64,000 bases of DNA from Alicyclobacillus fastidiosus (GTDB taxonomy: Bacteria > Bacillota > Bacilli > Alicyclobacillales > Alicyclobacillaceae), in the NCBI RefSeq assembly GCF_026651875.1, contig NZ_CP104067.1, positions 5,074,501 to 5,138,500 of the forward strand, written 5' to 3'. This document shows, one piece after another, positions 44,355-54,461 of the stretch (position 1 is its first letter; each line of letters starts with the position of its first letter). The notes under the pieces are model-generated. The model was not told where the DNA came from. It worked only from the letters and a program-made list of their open reading frames with translations, and did no database searches. The position numbers were made by a program, and so were the translations under genes.

Positions 44355-46250
44355 ATAGCCTCTCGGCATTCGGTTTTCGCTGACTCCTCAATGGTTCTGT
44401 CCTTCAGGAAGTGTGCATTTGCCCCCATGTTCGTCTAGTCCACTTGACAAATTAAAATTGGAAATGCGGCGCCGTTGTGCGAAGAAAACATGGTGTTTAC
44501 ACCAAAAATACTTGACTTTTCAAAATCACCCCAACAATCCCCGAGAAGAGCTTTTCCGCTCTATCTCATCGGAATTGGGGTTGCGTTATGTTACCAATGA
44601 TCAGGTCTCATGAGCAGTATCAATCGTTCGTTCAGCAACAACTTCGTATTCACTACACCAATGGGTCACTTCTGTTTGTCGCCAAAGACTGGTCCCTTGT
44701 GAAGAAGTTCTGGATTACTGACCTCTCTGACACGTTTAACTTACTGCGAGACACTTTCTCGTGTCGTGGTCCAAAATCCATTGACCCTGCCGACTTACTC
44801 CGTTCATACCTGCTCATGGTCCAGGTCGGAGAACCATCTATCACAGAATGGGTAAATCAATTACGGCGCTGCCCGCTGTATGCCATCCTCAGCGGCTTTG
44901 AGTACGGTCAAACGCCAGGTGTCGGTACATTCTACGGCTTTTTCCACCGACTGTGGTCTCACGGTTCTGTAAACCTTTCACCCAAGCGCAGACTCAACCG
45001 AAAGAAGATCAAAGGTGGTAAGAAAGGACAAAAGGCACCAACCAAAGCGTACAGCAAAATCGCGAACCTAATGGCTCAGCTGCAGAAGCGTTCCAGCGCC
45101 AAAGCCCAACCTTTCGACGTTCTGCTCAGATTGTTTCAGCACCAATTTCTTGCTATCTCTGCAAAGTCGGGCTTGTTAGGTAACACCCATGCGCTGTCTA
45201 TTGCCAGCGATGGAATGCCACTTCAAACAGCAGCCCAAGTTCGCAGTAAACGACTTTGCAACTGTCGAGAGCTCGGTATTGAGCCATGCAGGTGCTATCG
45301 TATCTACTCCCAACCCGACTGTGACATGGGCTGGGATAGTTATCGAAACAAATACTTCTTTGGCTATCATCTCTATACGTTTGTTGCTGCGGATAGTCCC
45401 TACGACCTGCCACTGTACCCTCGGCTTCAACGAGCGTCACGCCATGATGCGACCTCCTGGGTGGTCAGTACCCGCGAGTTCCTTGAACGCTTTCGTGAGT
45501 ACACCTGGGACAAAGCCATTTTAGACGCGGCTCATGATGCATTGCCGATCTACGAATATCTTCATGCACGACAGATTAAGCCGTTCATTGATTTAAATCT
45601 ACGGAGTACGGGAAGCAAGGGTGTTCGAAAGGATGACATCACGTTTTCCCCAGCTGGGGTTCCGTTCTGCAAGAAGGGGCTGGAGATGAAAGATCGTGGC
45701 TACGACTATACACGCGGACGCCGTAAATACTACTGCCCACTTGTTGTCAAAGGCGTGGTGACTTGTGATACGCCCTGTTCCGATTCACCTTACGGAAGAT
45801 GCGTACACACCTATACCAAGCACAATCCTCGCTTGTTTCCACCCGTCGCCCGCAACAGCGACGAGTGGAACAATGTCTACAAACGCAGAACCACCTGCGA
45901 ACGCAGCAACAAGCGAGTCAAAGAGGATTTTCTCCTCGAAGCTGCCAAGCACCGCAGTACCATGATGTGGACCGTCCGCATCTATGGCATCGCCATGTGC
46001 CAACACATGGACGCCTGGTACCAAGAGAGTAATCTCGACCCGAGATCGATGCTCTTGTCAGCTTAAGAATATCCCAATCATACCATCTTCAGTGATGACT
46101 TTTTTAAAACCGAATCGTCATCGCTCTGTTTGCTATACCCTTCTTCAAGAAACATGCATGATGCCGCATGGATTCTGCCGTTTTCCAGTTGATTACTGGG
46201 AGAATTCCTGGTTCATCCCACTTTTCTGTACTGCAATACCGAGAGTCTAT
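44355..46250 (+). mobile_element. 1896-bp insertion sequence, copy 1
   Basis: Its ends are ATAGCCTCTCGGCATT and, inverted, ATAGACTCTCGGTATT. ATCA is duplicated on both sides (44351-44354, 46251-46254). It carries one transposase gene. The copy at 48177-50072 has the same length and an identical protein, in opposite orientation. Confidence 0.92.
44588..46066 (+). CDS. DDE transposase (IS5/IS1182-like superfamily, family not assigned)
   Basis: 492 residues. The N-terminal part resembles DUF772 (SIDPADLLRSYLLMVQVG), followed by a basic linker (RRLNRKKIKGGKKGQK), IASDGMPLQT and AILDAAHDALPIYEYL as Asp motifs, and RRTTCERSNKRVKEDF for the catalytic Glu. Cysteine-rich loops (CNCRELGIEPCRC) are unusual. 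The copy at 48361-49839 encodes the same protein without a change, so both look functional and recent. Confidence 0.85.
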   Translation: MLPMIRSHEQYQSFVQQQLRIHYTNGSLLFVAKDWSLVKKFWITDLSDTFNLLRDTFSCRGPKSIDPADLLRSYLLMVQVGEPSITEWVNQLRRCPLYAILSGFEYGQTPGVGTFYGFFHRLWSHGSVNLSPKRRLNRKKIKGGKKGQKAPTKAYSKIANLMAQLQKRSSAKAQPFDVLLRLFQHQFLAISAKSGLLGNTHALSIASDGMPLQTAAQVRSKRLCNCRELGIEPCRCYRIYSQPDCDMGWDSYRNKYFFGYHLYTFVAADSPYDLPLYPRLQRASRHDATSWVVSTREFLERFREYTWDKAILDAAHDALPIYEYLHARQIKPFIDLNLRSTGSKGVRKDDITFSPAGVPFCKKGLEMKDRGYDYTRGRRKYYCPLVVKGVVTCDTPCSDSPYGRCVHTYTKHNPRLFPPVARNSDEWNNVYKRRTTCERSNKRVKEDFLLEAAKHRSTMMWTVRIYGIAMCQHMDAWYQESNLDPRSMLLSA

Positions 46251-47049: not shown

Positions 47050-47810
47050 TGACCGGGTAGCTTGGGCACCTTGCGGTGCCCTCGCCCCCTCAGAACCGTG
47101 CATGACCCTTTCGAGTCACACGGCTCAAGCCACCTTGCTGGTACGCTTGGTAACCCGTGACGCGGTGTGCGACTCCTCGCATTCTCTTTCGAGCGTGACC
47201 TGTTGACTCGTCTCTTGGACGGATAAAGGGGTTCATAACAGGTCACTTCATACGCCTCGTGCTACAAGATTCCCAGTTTGGTCACCTCGGGCAAGTCTGC
47301 ACGCTTTCACGTCAGGACATGGTATTTCTACGGTCCCTATCCGCCTCATTACAAGACAGCATTCGCTTTTTGCCCGCTCTTTTACCTCCTGGGGAATTCG
47401 GCTGCGCTTACGCTTTGCTTACTATCCACATTTAGATAGACCCCATGGGGCTTACCTTGTTTTGCCGACAACCCCTTAATCAGATGTTTAGGTGCCCCGA
47501 CTCCCGCGGTAGTGCTCGGAACTGCGAATCAGTAAAACGGGAGTACTGATCCCGACTACTTGCCTTTTGGCTCAAGCGTATCAGGGGATTTCGCTTGTCT
47601 TGAATAACGCGGTTTATAAGGGGTTCACTTACGTTCACCATGCATCTGCAACCTAGCTCCGGACCGAATATCCCTATCAACCTCGGCTACATTGTCCCGT
47701 GAGCTTCGAAAGACGGCGTTACCACCATCCCACGTCACGGTAGGTTCGCGGTCGCAGTTCAGACCGGATGGGTTCTCGCCATATGATTATCGACAACTTG
47801 CAAGTCGCAA
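47050..47810 (-). mobile_element. ORF-less group II intron
   Basis: The minus strand from about 47810 (TTGCGACTTGCAAG, close to the GTGCGAC start) to about 47050 reads as group II ribozyme RNA. It has domain I segments (CCTACCGTGACGTGGGATGG; GGTGAACGTAAGTGAACCCC), AACAAGGTAAGCCC, then domain V at 47093-47126, exactly 34 nt, starting GAGCCGTGTGAC with a GAAA loop, and a domain VI helix (GGGCACC gcaa GGTGCCC). No reverse transcriptase frame is present. It would depend on a maturase in trans. Confidence 0.8.
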
Positions 47811-48176: not shown

Positions 48177-50072
48177 ATAGACTCTCGGTATTGCAGTACA
48201 GAAAAGTGGGATGAACCAGGAATTCTCCCAGTAATCAACTGGAAAACGGCAGAATCCATGCGGCATCATGCATGTTTCTTGAAGAAGGGTATAGCAAACA
48301 GAGCGATGACGATTCGGTTTTAAAAAAGTCATCACTGAAGATGGTATGATTGGGATATTCTTAAGCTGACAAGAGCATCGATCTCGGGTCGAGATTACTC
48401 TCTTGGTACCAGGCGTCCATGTGTTGGCACATGGCGATGCCATAGATGCGGACGGTCCACATCATGGTACTGCGGTGCTTGGCAGCTTCGAGGAGAAAAT
48501 CCTCTTTGACTCGCTTGTTGCTGCGTTCGCAGGTGGTTCTGCGTTTGTAGACATTGTTCCACTCGTCGCTGTTGCGGGCGACGGGTGGAAACAAGCGAGG
48601 ATTGTGCTTGGTATAGGTGTGTACGCATCTTCCGTAAGGTGAATCGGAACAGGGCGTATCACAAGTCACCACGCCTTTGACAACAAGTGGGCAGTAGTAT
48701 TTACGGCGTCCGCGTGTATAGTCGTAGCCACGATCTTTCATCTCCAGCCCCTTCTTGCAGAACGGAACCCCAGCTGGGGAAAACGTGATGTCATCCTTTC
48801 GAACACCCTTGCTTCCCGTACTCCGTAGATTTAAATCAATGAACGGCTTAATCTGTCGTGCATGAAGATATTCGTAGATCGGCAATGCATCATGAGCCGC
48901 GTCTAAAATGGCTTTGTCCCAGGTGTACTCACGAAAGCGTTCAAGGAACTCGCGGGTACTGACCACCCAGGAGGTCGCATCATGGCGTGACGCTCGTTGA
49001 AGCCGAGGGTACAGTGGCAGGTCGTAGGGACTATCCGCAGCAACAAACGTATAGAGATGATAGCCAAAGAAGTATTTGTTTCGATAACTATCCCAGCCCA
49101 TGTCACAGTCGGGTTGGGAGTAGATACGATAGCACCTGCATGGCTCAATACCGAGCTCTCGACAGTTGCAAAGTCGTTTACTGCGAACTTGGGCTGCTGT
49201 TTGAAGTGGCATTCCATCGCTGGCAATAGACAGCGCATGGGTGTTACCTAACAAGCCCGACTTTGCAGAGATAGCAAGAAATTGGTGCTGAAACAATCTG
49301 AGCAGAACGTCGAAAGGTTGGGCTTTGGCGCTGGAACGCTTCTGCAGCTGAGCCATTAGGTTCGCGATTTTGCTGTACGCTTTGGTTGGTGCCTTTTGTC
49401 CTTTCTTACCACCTTTGATCTTCTTTCGGTTGAGTCTGCGCTTGGGTGAAAGGTTTACAGAACCGTGAGACCACAGTCGGTGGAAAAAGCCGTAGAATGT
49501 ACCGACACCTGGCGTTTGACCGTACTCAAAGCCGCTGAGGATGGCATACAGCGGGCAGCGCCGCAATTGATTTACCCATTCTGTGATAGATGGTTCTCCG
49601 ACCTGGACCATGAGCAGGTATGAACGGAGTAAGTCGGCAGGGTCAATGGATTTTGGACCACGACACGAGAAAGTGTCTCGCAGTAAGTTAAACGTGTCAG
49701 AGAGGTCAGTAATCCAGAACTTCTTCACAAGGGACCAGTCTTTGGCGACAAACAGAAGTGACCCATTGGTGTAGTGAATACGAAGTTGTTGCTGAACGAA
49801 CGATTGATACTGCTCATGAGACCTGATCATTGGTAACATAACGCAACCCCAATTCCGATGAGATAGAGCGGAAAAGCTCTTCTCGGGGATTGTTGGGGTG
49901 ATTTTGAAAAGTCAAGTATTTTTGGTGTAAACACCATGTTTTCTTCGCACAACGGCGCCGCATTTCCAATTTTAATTTGTCAAGTGGACTAGACGAACAT
50001 GGGGGCAAATGCACACTTCCTGAAGGACAGAACCATTGAGGAGTCAGCGAAAACCGAATGCCGAGAGGCTAT
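48177..50072 (-). mobile_element. 1896-bp insertion sequence, copy 2 (inverted)
   Basis: The same length and the same ends as copy 1, in opposite orientation. The target duplication is TGTA (48173-48176 and 50073-50076), different from that of copy 1, so the two inserted independently. It splits a minus-strand frame: rejoining the flanks keeps that frame open for another 28 codons. Confidence 0.92.
48361..49839 (-). CDS. DDE transposase, second copy
   Basis: 492 residues, identical to the product of 44588-46066, with the same D, D, E motifs. Short frames on both strands also match between the copies, so the nucleotide sequence appears unchanged. This implies very recent duplication by transposition or gene conversion. 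Confidence 0.85.
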   Translation of the reverse strand: MLPMIRSHEQYQSFVQQQLRIHYTNGSLLFVAKDWSLVKKFWITDLSDTFNLLRDTFSCRGPKSIDPADLLRSYLLMVQVGEPSITEWVNQLRRCPLYAILSGFEYGQTPGVGTFYGFFHRLWSHGSVNLSPKRRLNRKKIKGGKKGQKAPTKAYSKIANLMAQLQKRSSAKAQPFDVLLRLFQHQFLAISAKSGLLGNTHALSIASDGMPLQTAAQVRSKRLCNCRELGIEPCRCYRIYSQPDCDMGWDSYRNKYFFGYHLYTFVAADSPYDLPLYPRLQRASRHDATSWVVSTREFLERFREYTWDKAILDAAHDALPIYEYLHARQIKPFIDLNLRSTGSKGVRKDDITFSPAGVPFCKKGLEMKDRGYDYTRGRRKYYCPLVVKGVVTCDTPCSDSPYGRCVHTYTKHNPRLFPPVARNSDEWNNVYKRRTTCERSNKRVKEDFLLEAAKHRSTMMWTVRIYGIAMCQHMDAWYQESNLDPRSMLLSA

Positions 50073-50284: not shown

Positions 50285-51096
50285 ATCTTTACCGATCTCT
50301 CACCAATCGTCGGATTGGACTTGGTGAACCGTATCATAAATCAAGACTAGATAGAGGACCACATTTTGATGATTGATGCAAGGAGTTCACCATTCGACAG
50401 ATCAACGAAATCGCCTCTGGCGGTCAATAATTGAAATTCCACTGGGTAATACGTTCTTCGGTTAACGGGATTAACTGAAGACATTTTTAAAGGCATTACC
50501 AAATTGACCCTCGCAGTTCGAACACTTGGTTCATTGAACTCCCCACTTGTCTAAGGCGCCTACCTCAGCGAGGTTGTGCTGTCCTTCTTCACCAATACAT
50601 GGACCCTCTGACTCCCTCACCGCCACTTACCACTTTACTCTTCGGGTTTAACGCAAAATGTCCATAGTTACGAGGTAAGGTCTCTCCAATTCAGAACAAC
50701 ACTTTCACTGCTCCCCAGACACCCGCAAGCTTCTAACCCACTGTTTATCCAAATCTTTCATACATATTTTTATCCCACTGCCAACTTCCAAATATCGTGT
50801 CGATTGCTTTCCCATTAAAAGTTGGTATTCACGCATGTATCTTCGCAGTAGAACCTGATGGAAACGCACCGCCATTGCAGATTCCAGAACACCGAAGCCC
50901 CATCCTAACTAGTCGCCGTTGAAAATTTCATGTGGCGCCCGCAGTGGCTCAGCACAACGTTTTTCACCTACGTCGACGTTTATCGACAAATATACACGGC
51001 ATATTACAAAAGTTCTTACTGCTTGCTGTCTGATTATGCGAGAAGATGTGATGTATACCAAGTGGTAATTCAATGGTTATCGGGGAGGTATCAAGA
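50285..51096. other. non-coding stretch with a possible group II intron relic
   Basis: No gene is supported. Within it, 50520-50745 on the minus strand resembles group II intron RNA (listed separately). The last 40 bp hold the binding site of the TnsD-like gene. Confidence 0.4.
50520..50745 (-). ncRNA. possible group II intron fragment
   Basis: The minus strand reads GGAGAGACCTTACCTCG, then GGTGAGGGAGTCAGAGGG with TCCATGTATTGGTGAAG, phrases like those in the domain I to IV part of group II introns just before the reverse transcriptase. No domain V or reverse transcriptase is found nearby. Identification is by eye only. Confidence 0.35.
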
Positions 51097-53170
51097 GTGA
51101 CCAACGAGATTTCTGAGCATATAACAATAAAGCGGTCAAACCTATACCATTTTGAGCCCAGCGCGTTAGGTACAGGATACGTGGAGAGCCTGACCAGTTA
51201 TCTTGGCCGACTCGCCAACGCACATCTCGTTAGCATTAGAAGGCTTGGAATTAAGTACCTGAATCTTGAGTTAAAGAGCTGCCAATGTACTTTAAATGGT
51301 AACAGGAGTATTACTCCTGATTTGGTTACTCGGACTGAAACAGAGACGATGGTTAGTGGTCTCAGTAGGCTCACTATGCTCCCTATGATGCATATTCTAG
51401 CTCAGCAAGATTTATTTAAGAAAATTCGGGTATGGTGCCCATTATGTTATCAAGAATGGGCGAACACGAAGCGACCAATTTATGATCCATTATTATGGTC
51501 GCTGAATGTCGTTTCCCATTGCCCTGTACACAAGCAACCATTAAATTACATGTGCCCAAACCCAGACTGTCACAAACAGATTCGTAAATACGGGTTACCT
51601 GGCATATGTCCGTATTGTGAACAATGGCTTGGTGTCGCCAGTAGTGTTTACTCTAACGACATTAATGATAATAGGAATGACGAGTGGGTTTCTTGGGTAA
51701 ATGAAAATTGTATGGGGCTACTGGAAGGTAGTAGTCAAATTGATAAGGATTGGGCCTTTGATAATAAACTACGGGTATGCCTTAACGATGTACTCCCGGA
51801 CGAACTGGAAATGTTTGCGTTCGCCCGAAAACTGGGAATTCACCCGACTCGTATGTCCCAATTCTGTAACGGACATGACCGACCATCATTAGAAATACTG
51901 CTTAAAATATCGTTCAATCTCCGTATATCCTTAGAACAAATGTTCTTGTCTAAGAAGAAAGGAGACTCTAATCGAAGACGGAGAAGCGGTACAGCGTACG
52001 GACCCGTAGAGATTCAACAAAAACTCCTTGATATTCTGAAAGCAGATAAAGACATACCGTCAACTATCGAACAACTTGCGAAACGTGTAGGCTGTGCCCG
52101 GTCCACCTTGCGAAAGTATGTACCAAACGCAAACCAACTTCTGGATGAGGCCCGAAAGAAAACAGACTCAGAATATCTAAAGAAAACCGCTAACCGACCT
52201 GTAAATTTAAGTAAGAGTGAAATCCATAAAACTTTGCTTTTAGAACTTGAATCCAAAGAACCAAAATGTTTGGCTGAAATAGCACGCAACCTAGGAAGAC
52301 ATCCAACGACACTAAAAGGCCATTTCCCAGAGCTTTGCAAACAAATTGTTAATCGCTATCGTGAACAGCACTTAGAAAAGAAAGAACAATTAATTAAAGG
52401 TCATCCACTTGAGAAGCATCAGTCACTACAGAAAAAATTCGGGACTGCCAGTAGAAAATTAAAAATTTCAAAGGAAACTATGGAGTATGAGTTATTGTCC
52501 ACTTTAAAGAAACCCTCCCCCATACCACTTGAGCATATAGCACAATCGCTCGAAATATCCAGCAACAATCTACGAAATCATTTTCCGGATATAAGTAAAC
52601 AGATTGTGACTCGGTATAAAACGTATATTGTCCAACAGAGACAATTAAACCTTGAAAAACTTCGCTCACAACTTGAACATCATTTGGAATCGAATGAGGC
52701 TCCACTGCCTCTTGAAAAAATTGCGTCGATATATAACGTTAACCCGAGACACTATTATAAGCATTTTCCCGAAAAAGCACATCGGATTTCCCATTTATAC
52801 CTAGAATATAGAAAGGAGTCATCATCACAAGATCATTTATTGTTAAAGACTATAAAACATTAAATATACAGATATCCAAAAAATACGGAACAATCTTTAA
52901 CTTCTGAGATACCAGTCTCCCTCACTCAAATAAGCAAGGACATCGGTTATTTAATCAAAATGTTAGAGAAATTTCCGGAACACTATGTTGAAATCAGGAA
53001 ACATTATTCAGATTATAGGACAAAAAAGTTGAACGAGACTGCGCACTGATGTGAAGTAGTAAATCAACTTTATAAAGAGGGTATACCGACAAATAGGAGA
53101 GTCATAAAGCGGACTCGTCCCGGGATTCTAGCCAACTTGGAGTGCCGCGTGGTTCTAAAAGACGCGCGCT
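51097..53170 (+). pseudogene. TnsD/TniQ-family transposon targeting protein, decayed
   Basis: GTG 51097 follows GGGGAGG. The N-terminal TniQ part has YVESLTSYLGRLANAHLVS and four zinc-type pairs (WCPLC, CPVH, MCPNPDC, ICPYC; about residues 113-174). An XRE-like HTH follows near residue 245, then four repeats of about 70 residues with HTH character (LAEIARNLGRHPTTLKGHFP; LEHIAQSLEISSNNLRNHFP). TAA at 52861 ends the main frame at 588 residues. The same frame then continues with a fifth unit (ISKDIGYLIKMLEKFPEH) and the family's C-terminus (VVNQLYKEGIPTNRRVIKR), after a second stop, TGA, at 53047. No tnsA, tnsB or tnsC is in the window. Confidence 0.8.
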
Positions 53171-53213
53171 CAAGTACCACCGCTGAATTCAACAACGAGC
53201 AGTTAATTTAAGA

Positions 53214-53281
53214 TTGAAGCATAAGTTTGCCGCAAAAGTTTTGAAGCATAACCTTGCCGAAACGGCAAAGTTATGCTTCAA
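53214..53281. repeat. 19-bp repeat array between the TnsD-like gene and tmRNA
   Basis: TTGAAGCATAAGTTTGCCG (53214-53232) and TTGAAGCATAACCTTGCCG (53241-53259) are direct copies 27 bp apart. CGGCAAAGTTATGCTTCAA (53263-53281) is the inverted copy of the second. The pattern resembles TnsB-binding repeats at a Tn7-like end. No matching end is seen elsewhere in the window. Confidence 0.7.
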
Positions 53282-53291
53282 ATGACATCCT

Positions 53292-53315
53292 CCACGACGG
53301 GTTGGTCGTGGTTTT
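53292..53315 (+). terminator. hairpin and T-run between convergent transcripts
   Basis: CCACGAC and GTCGTGG (53292-53298, 53305-53311) form a 7-bp stem followed by TTTT on the plus strand, just before the tmRNA 3' end. It probably stops plus-strand readthrough into ssrA. Confidence 0.5.
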
Positions 53316-53318
53316 ACT

Positions 53319-53690
53319 TGGTGGAGGCGACGGGAATCGAACCCGCGTCCGAAGATCTCGCTACATGTACATCTACGGGCGTAGACCGTCTACGAAAGTC
53401 CCTGCCATCCGCGGACGATCACGCTGATGTACAGGCAAGTTCGTTTAAGTTTCGCCGGTGGTCCACGAACATGACCATCGACTAGCCTGCTAAGTTGACG
53501 TTACAGGGTGTGCACAGGCGACACACGATGTAACGGTCTCGTACCTAATTAGGCAGCGAGAGCGAGATTGCTGTTTGAGGTAAAGCGATTAGCTTTGCCA
53601 GTTAAAGAAGTTCCGCGTGATTAACGTGTGCGCAGCCCCACGGCCCGCCGTACATGCTCGAACAACCCCCGTCGAATCCAAAACGCCCCC
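53319..53690 (-). ncRNA. ssrA: transfer-messenger RNA (tmRNA)
   Basis: A 372-nt RNA, 5' GGGGGCGTTTTGGATTCGAC and 3' GGTTCGATTCCCGTCGCC followed by TCCACCA, which pair into the alanine-type acceptor stem. The CCA is encoded. The tag frame resumes at GGC (53597-53599) and reads GKANRFTSNSNLALAA before TAA at 53549-53551, so the tag added after the tRNA alanine ends in ALAA as required for proteolysis. It rescues stalled ribosomes with SmpB, encoded just upstream. Confidence 0.97.
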
Positions 53691-53987: not shown

Positions 53988-54461
53988 TCAGCCTTTTTGT
54001 CGCTCTCGGAGTGCGCGCTGAATCTCGCGACTGGCGTCTCGCTTCTTCATGGACTCGCGCTTGTCGTGCAGCTTTTTCCCTTTGGCGAGGCCGAGCTCCA
54101 CTTTTGCAAAGCCGTTTTTCAGATACACTTTGGTGGGAACCAACGTAAAGCCCTGTTCGCGGACGGCTCCGTACAGGTAGTTGATTTCCTTCTTGTGTAG
54201 AAGGCATTTGCGGGTCCGCAGTGGATCATGATTGAAGCGATTCCCCTGCTCGTAGGGTGCCACGTGCATGTTGTGCAGATACACTTCACCGTGTTCTACG
54301 CGCGCGTATGCGTCACGCATGCTCACGGAGCCTTTGCGCATGGACTTGATCTCCGTACCCGTGAGGACCAGGCCTGCCTCAAACGTCTCCTCGATGAAAT
54401 AATCGTGAAACGCTTTTCGGTTTTGGGCGAGGACTTTGCCGTTCCCGTTCCCCTTCGCCAT
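53988..54461 (-). CDS. smpB: SsrA-binding protein SmpB
   Basis: 157 residues, full length. It has [33 protein letters not shown], and the basic C-terminal tail [20 protein letters not shown] that enters the ribosome's mRNA channel. It binds tmRNA and brings it to stalled ribosomes. It follows rnr by 174 bp, a gap that holds a GC hairpin at 54585-54606 (GGGCGCGG/CCGCGCCC). Confidence 0.97.

Follow-up and report, generated by a model that had tools for sequence, protein, structure and literature searches.

The systems closest to the locus described here are found among the Tn7-like transposons. In the type I-B2 CAST branch, TnsA and TnsB are fused into a single protein (TnsAB) and TnsD homes to a tRNA gene (PMC11406308), while in the type I-D system CyCAST, protein-guided homing leads to insertion approximately 30-33 nt downstream of tRNA-Leu (PMC10293859). 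The tmRNA gene, ssrA, is known as a classic target of integrases (Islander, PMC4383910), and the Dehalococcoides serine recombinase DsiB also targets it (PMC3146451).

We analysed a window of 64,000 nt from the genome of Alicyclobacillus fastidiosus (NZ_CP104067.1, positions 5,074,501 to 5,138,500; positions given below are those of the window, and genome positions are preceded by C1). Our main reading, to which we assign a probability of about 0.92, is that a Tn7-like transposon of the fused TnsA-TnsB branch has decayed here, leaving its ssrA-proximal end in the segment from 51.1 to 53.29 kb, and that its TnsD belongs to a lineage that homes to ssrA.

The ssrA elements resemble PmcCAST (Tn7744; transpososome structures PDB 8v32 and 9bw1) in having a fused TnsAB, a related TnsC, and TnsD together with a second TniQ protein; they differ in that the attachment (att) site is tmRNA, the hosts are Bacilli and the window copy is broken. 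On reading the ORF lists around the tns genes we noticed no cas gene. The offset from the target gene is similar to that of CyCAST (Tn7745), namely 30-33 nt past tRNA-Leu versus 27-32 nt past ssrA; however, the target gene is another one, and the RNA-guided second pathway known for CyCAST was not seen here. Tn7 itself shares the TniQ-family TnsD, the TGT...ACA ends, the 5-bp duplication and insertion just past a conserved gene, whereas it targets glmS, has separate TnsA and TnsB, and shows only remote sequence similarity. With the integrase islands at tmRNA (Williams; Islander) the elements share the address, and displaced ssrA 3' fragments are present at some related loci. Those islands, however, recombine inside ssrA and leave a displaced 3' copy, whereas the Tn7-like elements lie outside the gene and are associated with a 5-bp duplication. 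A literature search, mostly without subscription papers and without supplements, retrieved no paper on a Tn7-like element, TniQ or TnsD with tmRNA (ssrA) as attachment site. The kind of element is a known one, and tmRNA as its attachment site looks new.

The tnsD-like gene and its decay

The sequence-only reading had described a TniQ-domain protein with four zinc pairs and a chain of helix-turn-helix (HTH) repeats, encoded by a gene with two in-frame stops that ends 109 bp from ssrA. Each of these points was borne out. The gene consists of two parts:

51073 to 52863, plus strand: tnsD-like ORF of the TniQ family (start ATG 51073 or GTG 51097; Pfam, phmmer, Foldseek), cut short by TAA 52861-52863
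52864 to 53211, plus strand: former C-terminal part of the tnsD-like gene, by read-through translation, with TGA 53047 inside and the stop of the frame at TAA 53209-53211

The first ORF contains the Pfam TniQ domain (PF06527, E = 9.3e-14), followed by HTH domains. The ligands of its zinc pairs (CPLC, CPVH, CPNPDC and CPYC) are kept in all aligned relatives, and the AlphaFold model, which is of moderate confidence, predicts a series of helical HTH-like modules beyond residue ~300. Both stops (TAA 52861 and TGA 53047) are real, and similarity to the C-terminus of a related TniQ protein persists behind the first of them (tblastn match to 52876-53163, in the frame of tnsD, E = 1.3e-6). From the ancestral stop at 53209, approximately 109 bp remain to the 3' end of ssrA (53319).

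The transposon end and its border

The following features lie between this gene and smpB:

53214 to 53232, plus strand: transposon-end repeat 3, innermost, putative TnsB site (repeat scans)
53241 to 53259, plus strand: transposon-end repeat 2, putative TnsB site (repeat scans)
53263 to 53281, minus strand: transposon-end repeat 1, outermost and inverted, putative TnsB site (repeat scans)
53271 to 53287, minus strand: terminal motif TGTCATTTGAAGCATAA, which recurs at the borders of other elements; 53287 is the final base of the element on the ssrA side
53288 to 53292, plus strand: TCCTC, expected target-site duplication by analogy with GATGG of A. mengziensis; partner copy not found
53288 to 53318, no strand: 31-bp spacer between element end and ssrA, of which 26 bp are identical to G038, a related genome without the element
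53319 to 53690, minus strand: ssrA (tmRNA), intact, with tag GKANRFTSNSNLALAA; its 3' end is the attachment site
53319 to 53335, minus strand: last 17 nt of ssrA, TCCCGTCGCCTCCACCA, candidate TnsD recognition sequence, judged from the sequence common to intact ssrA sites
53988 to 54461, minus strand: ORF upstream of ssrA (ORF list), given as context and presumably smpB, named by recognition of its product

The array of 19-bp repeats described in the sequence-only reading, two direct and one inverted, was recovered at 53214, 53241 and 53263, and its inverted arms are 95% complementary. The array is not a product of chance, since GAAGCATAANNTTGCCG is matched exactly only three times in the 6.0-Mb genome, each time within the same 64 bp at this place. 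Read from ssrA, which is single-copy in the host genome, the border is GAGGA followed directly by TGTCATTTGAAGCATAACTTTGCCG; the outer repeat faces the inverted one, and a further copy lies inwards. Because the terminal TGT is located there, we take 53287 (53.29 kb, in place of the 53.2 kb first proposed) as the border, which leaves 31 bp to ssrA. The identity with G038 ends close to this point, and site comparison with relatives upholds a border at the repeats. The window copy thus possesses a right-end TGT terminus with its repeat array.

This genome has two further Tn7-like elements with the same end layout: element a, by tRNA-Arg at C1:22.2 kb, and element b, which ends at C1:4233.4 kb and possesses both ends and the target-site duplication CAAAA. 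Cyanobacterial loci with a related TnsD show the same end motif behind tRNA-Ala and tRNA-Val. The occurrence of one array at ssrA- and tRNA-linked elements indicates that it is the end signature of this transposon branch. Element a begins 29 bp after an ssrA 3'-end fragment (C1:22135-22195), located approximately 100 bp behind tRNA-Arg(CCT).

The repeats might instead be nothing more than a local palindrome or the terminator of ssrA transcription, with tniQ as a coincidental neighbour: two repeat copies make a strong hairpin right behind ssrA, where a terminator is expected. Against this, the arrays also accompany elements next to tRNA genes, both in this genome and in cyanobacteria; A. mengziensis has the end motif at either terminus of an element flanked by a 5-bp duplication (see below); and other sequences follow ssrA in related genomes without the element. 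We regard such an origin of the repeats as extremely improbable.

Intact relatives and an exact insertion

A search for TniQ genes beside ssrA in relatives, proposed together with the sequence-only reading, yielded them at the same place, with transposition machinery and the same end arrays. In A. acidiphilus (G001), the end array, TnsD, TnsC, the fused TnsAB (TnsA-like N-terminal, rve and Mu-transpos_C domains) and a second TniQ follow ssrA in one run. The spacer in this strain agrees with that of G004 and then diverges near the border, as is the case for the window and G038. In A. mengziensis (G019, NZ_CP071182.1) the element measures 110.9 kb, has TGT...ACA ends and is located 29 bp downstream of ssrA, with the genes tnsD, tnsC, fused tnsAB and tniQ in the same order as in A. 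acidiphilus; the TnsAB frame is ~891 aa long and is followed by a duplicated TnsA-like fragment. The ssrA-side borders of both strains have the repeat layout of the window. In Peribacillus acanthi, ssrA is followed by a nearly identical end array and then by TniQ, TnsAB, TnsC and TnsD.

For A. mengziensis the insertion could be defined to the base. The ssrA-side junction is ACCGGAGATGG joined to TGTAACTT, and the far junction, near position 1476425 and 110.9 kb from the ssrA side, is AAGTCACA joined to GATGGGTTTTTGCC. The uninterrupted target, ACCGGAGATGGGTTTTTGCC, is present behind ssrA in G029. Since the element splits this sequence and is flanked by the 5-bp duplication GATGG, it represents one insertion, 29 bp behind ssrA. 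The G029 site is not empty in every sense, as a large serine recombinase-like gene comes next, though the junction itself is uninterrupted. The 5-bp duplication that was to be sought at an unoccupied site is thus exact in A. mengziensis, whereas for the window the partner copy was not found. The A. mengziensis insertion cuts a terminator-like hairpin behind ssrA, which may be replaced by a putative hairpin of the transposon end. The element also contains several tyrosine recombinase-like genes (L043:11505-18897, L044) and a further TniQ gene near 1449438.

These junctions bear on the view that a tyrosine or large serine integrase brought an ordinary island to ssrA, tniQ and the repeats being passengers. 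The record of ssrA as an integrase target (PMC4383910; PMC3146451) speaks for such an origin, as do the large serine recombinase-like genes beside ssrA in several relatives. In the window, however, no integrase lies between tniQ and ssrA, and the border, a Tn7-type TGT end, is 31 bp outside the gene; in A. mengziensis an integrase origin is refuted by the 5-bp duplication outside the gene and the lack of a duplicated ssrA 3' end. We consider integrase-mediated placement very unlikely and retain the Tn7-like transposon as the source of the window end. Large serine recombinase-like genes are found directly behind ssrA in several Alicyclobacillaceae (L049, L051, L055, L063, L069, L071), and the locus is therefore common to several kinds of mobile element.

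Recurrence at ssrA in Bacilli

We surveyed 399 Bacilli genomes with a pattern in which the ssrA 3' sequence is followed, after 22-42 free bases, by the terminal motif. It occurred at 11 sites in 10 genomes, and the reversed-pattern control gave no match. Eight sites are at an intact ssrA (the window, G027, G158, G188, G217, G218, to judge by its identical sequence the P. acanthi assembly, G394 and G130) and the remaining three at an ssrA 3' fragment (element a of this genome, G242 and G274). Together with A. acidiphilus and A. mengziensis, the intact sites amount to ten genomes, in all of which the spacing between ssrA and the element end is 27-32 bp. The probability of so narrow a spread is ~6e-5 if uniform spacing is assumed for these ten genomes. 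A second pattern, allowing any tRNA or tmRNA gene, gave eight sites in the same 399 genomes, seven at ssrA or its 3' fragment and one at tRNA-Ser; it misses some ssrA sites because of introns. Both patterns require one strict end motif.

It could be argued that a Tn7-like element reached ssrA in the window by chance or rearrangement and that ssrA is not its att site. This would agree with the missing partner of the window duplication and with the stray ssrA fragment adjoining element a, and it is contradicted by the recurrence of the same end at 27-32 bp from an intact ssrA in ten genomes and by the empty control. Accidental arrival thus has very little probability, and homing to ssrA is the reading that we follow below.

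Several of the surveyed sites are also relics, because the genomes G158, G217, G242 and G274 have an ssrA-adjacent end and no TniQ gene. Both borders were sought within 25-160 kb for the elements of G188, G217, G158, G027 and G242, and no convincing left end was recognised; A. mengziensis is the one ssrA insertion with both borders resolved. In G242 the ssrA 3' fragment with its Tn7-like end (G242:C1:201079-201454, L151) is separated from the intact ssrA by 39 kb on the downstream side, which would fit an integrase island that arrived subsequently and moved the first 3' end away.

In G130 and G394 the T-loop of ssrA is interrupted, with ~280 nt between the T-loop and the ssrA 3' end, and the Tn7-like end is located 28-32 bp past the 3' exon of the split gene. 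The insert (G394, L148:480-860; G130, L149) is group I intron-like, and had no Rfam intron match at E 0.01.

Protein kinship

The TnsAB proteins of the relatives, which combine a Tn7_TnsA-like_N and an rve domain in one protein, are closest to PDB chain 9bw1_M (E = 1.3e-217), and their TnsC is closest to the 8fcu/8v32/9bw1 protein and to 9g0f. The window TnsD matches the TnsD chain 8v32_J (phmmer, E = 5.2e-36), which is also the top Foldseek match of its predicted structure (E = 6.8e-16). We take the 8fcu, 8v32 and 9bw1 proteins to represent the I-B2 CAST branch, in which TnsAB is a fusion and TnsD homes to tRNA.

In the tree, the window TnsD joins the three Alicyclobacillaceae TnsDs of ssrA-linked elements (support 93/80), although it is merely 26-28% identical to other ssrA-linked TnsDs and forms a long branch. 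This group does not include the TnsDs of P. acanthi, G130 and G394. On this account, homing to ssrA may have arisen more than once, a suggestion that the long branches make uncertain. Among plasmid records, relatives of the window TnsD occur almost only in cyanobacteria.

Probable losses of the window copy

The absence of TnsA, TnsB and TnsC, noted in the sequence-only reading, was confirmed by tblastn, which detected no remnants in the window, in 100 kb to the left or in 20 kb to the right; it matched nothing except two stretches of 14 residues, located a long way to the left. The expectation that tnsABC and a matching repeat end would be located within 100 kb to the left failed on both counts. 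The left end was not found by a repeat-matrix scan, an end-motif scan or a search for TCCTC followed directly by TGT, covering 100-120 kb leftward. Since neither tnsABC nor a left end was found within 100 kb, the window copy is a relic. The one strong array encountered, at C1:4977495-4977738 and 150 kb away, was rejected as the left end, as it has another repeat variant and the flank CCATA instead of TCCTC. This solitary left-end-like array is preceded by a palindrome that also occurs behind ssrA in G006 and G022.

One further feature adjoins the relic:

48361 to 49839, minus strand: IS transposase, identical to the inverted copy at 44588-46066, with a possible role in decay

The two IS copies, 1.2 and 5 kb left of the relic, are possible agents of the loss of tnsABC and of the left end. 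Their transposases (492 aa, identical and in inverted orientation) flank group II intron pieces (47052-47768).

The island to the left may be former cargo of the element, as first proposed. This is unproven, because the left end and the duplication of the window insertion itself were not found. A large-scale comparison with G007, G004 and G006, aimed at the far edge of the island, yielded no more than scattered matches, the majority of them to mobile elements, and the far flank of the G038/G004-type site, sought in this genome and in A. acidiphilus, revealed no left junction.

Proposed mechanism and implications

In intact members, TnsB would bind the ~19-bp end repeats, and the fused TnsAB would cut and join the TGT...ACA ends, with TnsC as a bridge and TnsD as the selector of the target. 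TnsD, bound to DNA at the 3' end of ssrA, would recruit TnsC and TnsAB; insertion 27-32 bp downstream would leave the tmRNA intact and duplicate 5 bp. The window copy would subsequently have lost its transposase genes and left end, probably to IS elements, and its tnsD would have gained two stops.

The proposal of a Tn7-like relic at ssrA is thus supported by the machinery, the arrays and the exact 5-bp duplication in relatives. The findings named in advance as contrary to it did not arise: site comparison places the border at the repeats, and relatives recur at ssrA. From location and kinship we infer that TnsD itself most likely recognises ssrA. The ssrA sites agree in the final ~17 bp of the gene (TCCC..CG.CTCCACCA) and not in the spacer, which suggests that these base pairs carry the targeting signal; the candidate was derived from intact ssrA sites, including two with an insert-split T-loop. 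Provided that the insert is older than the transposon insertion, the T-loop, split off by ~280 nt in G130 and G394, cannot be required for the signal. We lean towards a wider interpretation, in which tmRNA would be the principal RNA-gene att site of a Bacilli-wide fused-TnsAB branch, TnsD would recognise the final ~17 bp of ssrA in the form of double-stranded DNA, even where an intron splits the T-loop, and ssrA specificity would perhaps have more than one origin from tRNA-homing ancestors.

The tmRNA gene, known as an address of integrase islands, would accordingly also be a Tn7-type address, where other chemistry operates and insertion occurs outside the gene at a constant distance. This adds one more att site for a transposon family of interest in targeted DNA insertion, and ssrA homing would explain some of the large islands behind ssrA in Bacilli. 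Moreover, the intact TnsDs of A. mengziensis and A. acidiphilus may show how a tRNA-homing selector changes its target, and can be compared with the solved I-B2 TnsD-TnsC-DNA structure.

Two further arrangements were observed. Element b, which adjoins a tRNA-Ser 3' fragment, encodes a 1299-aa TnsC-TnsD fusion (C1:4229272-4233171), with a TnsC-like AAA domain, a TniQ/TnsD domain and many HTH repeats. At L144:828-880, a 53-bp near-palindrome (TGTGACTTGAACC...GTTCAAGTCACA) lies behind an ssrA fragment, as if both transposon ends had collapsed together.
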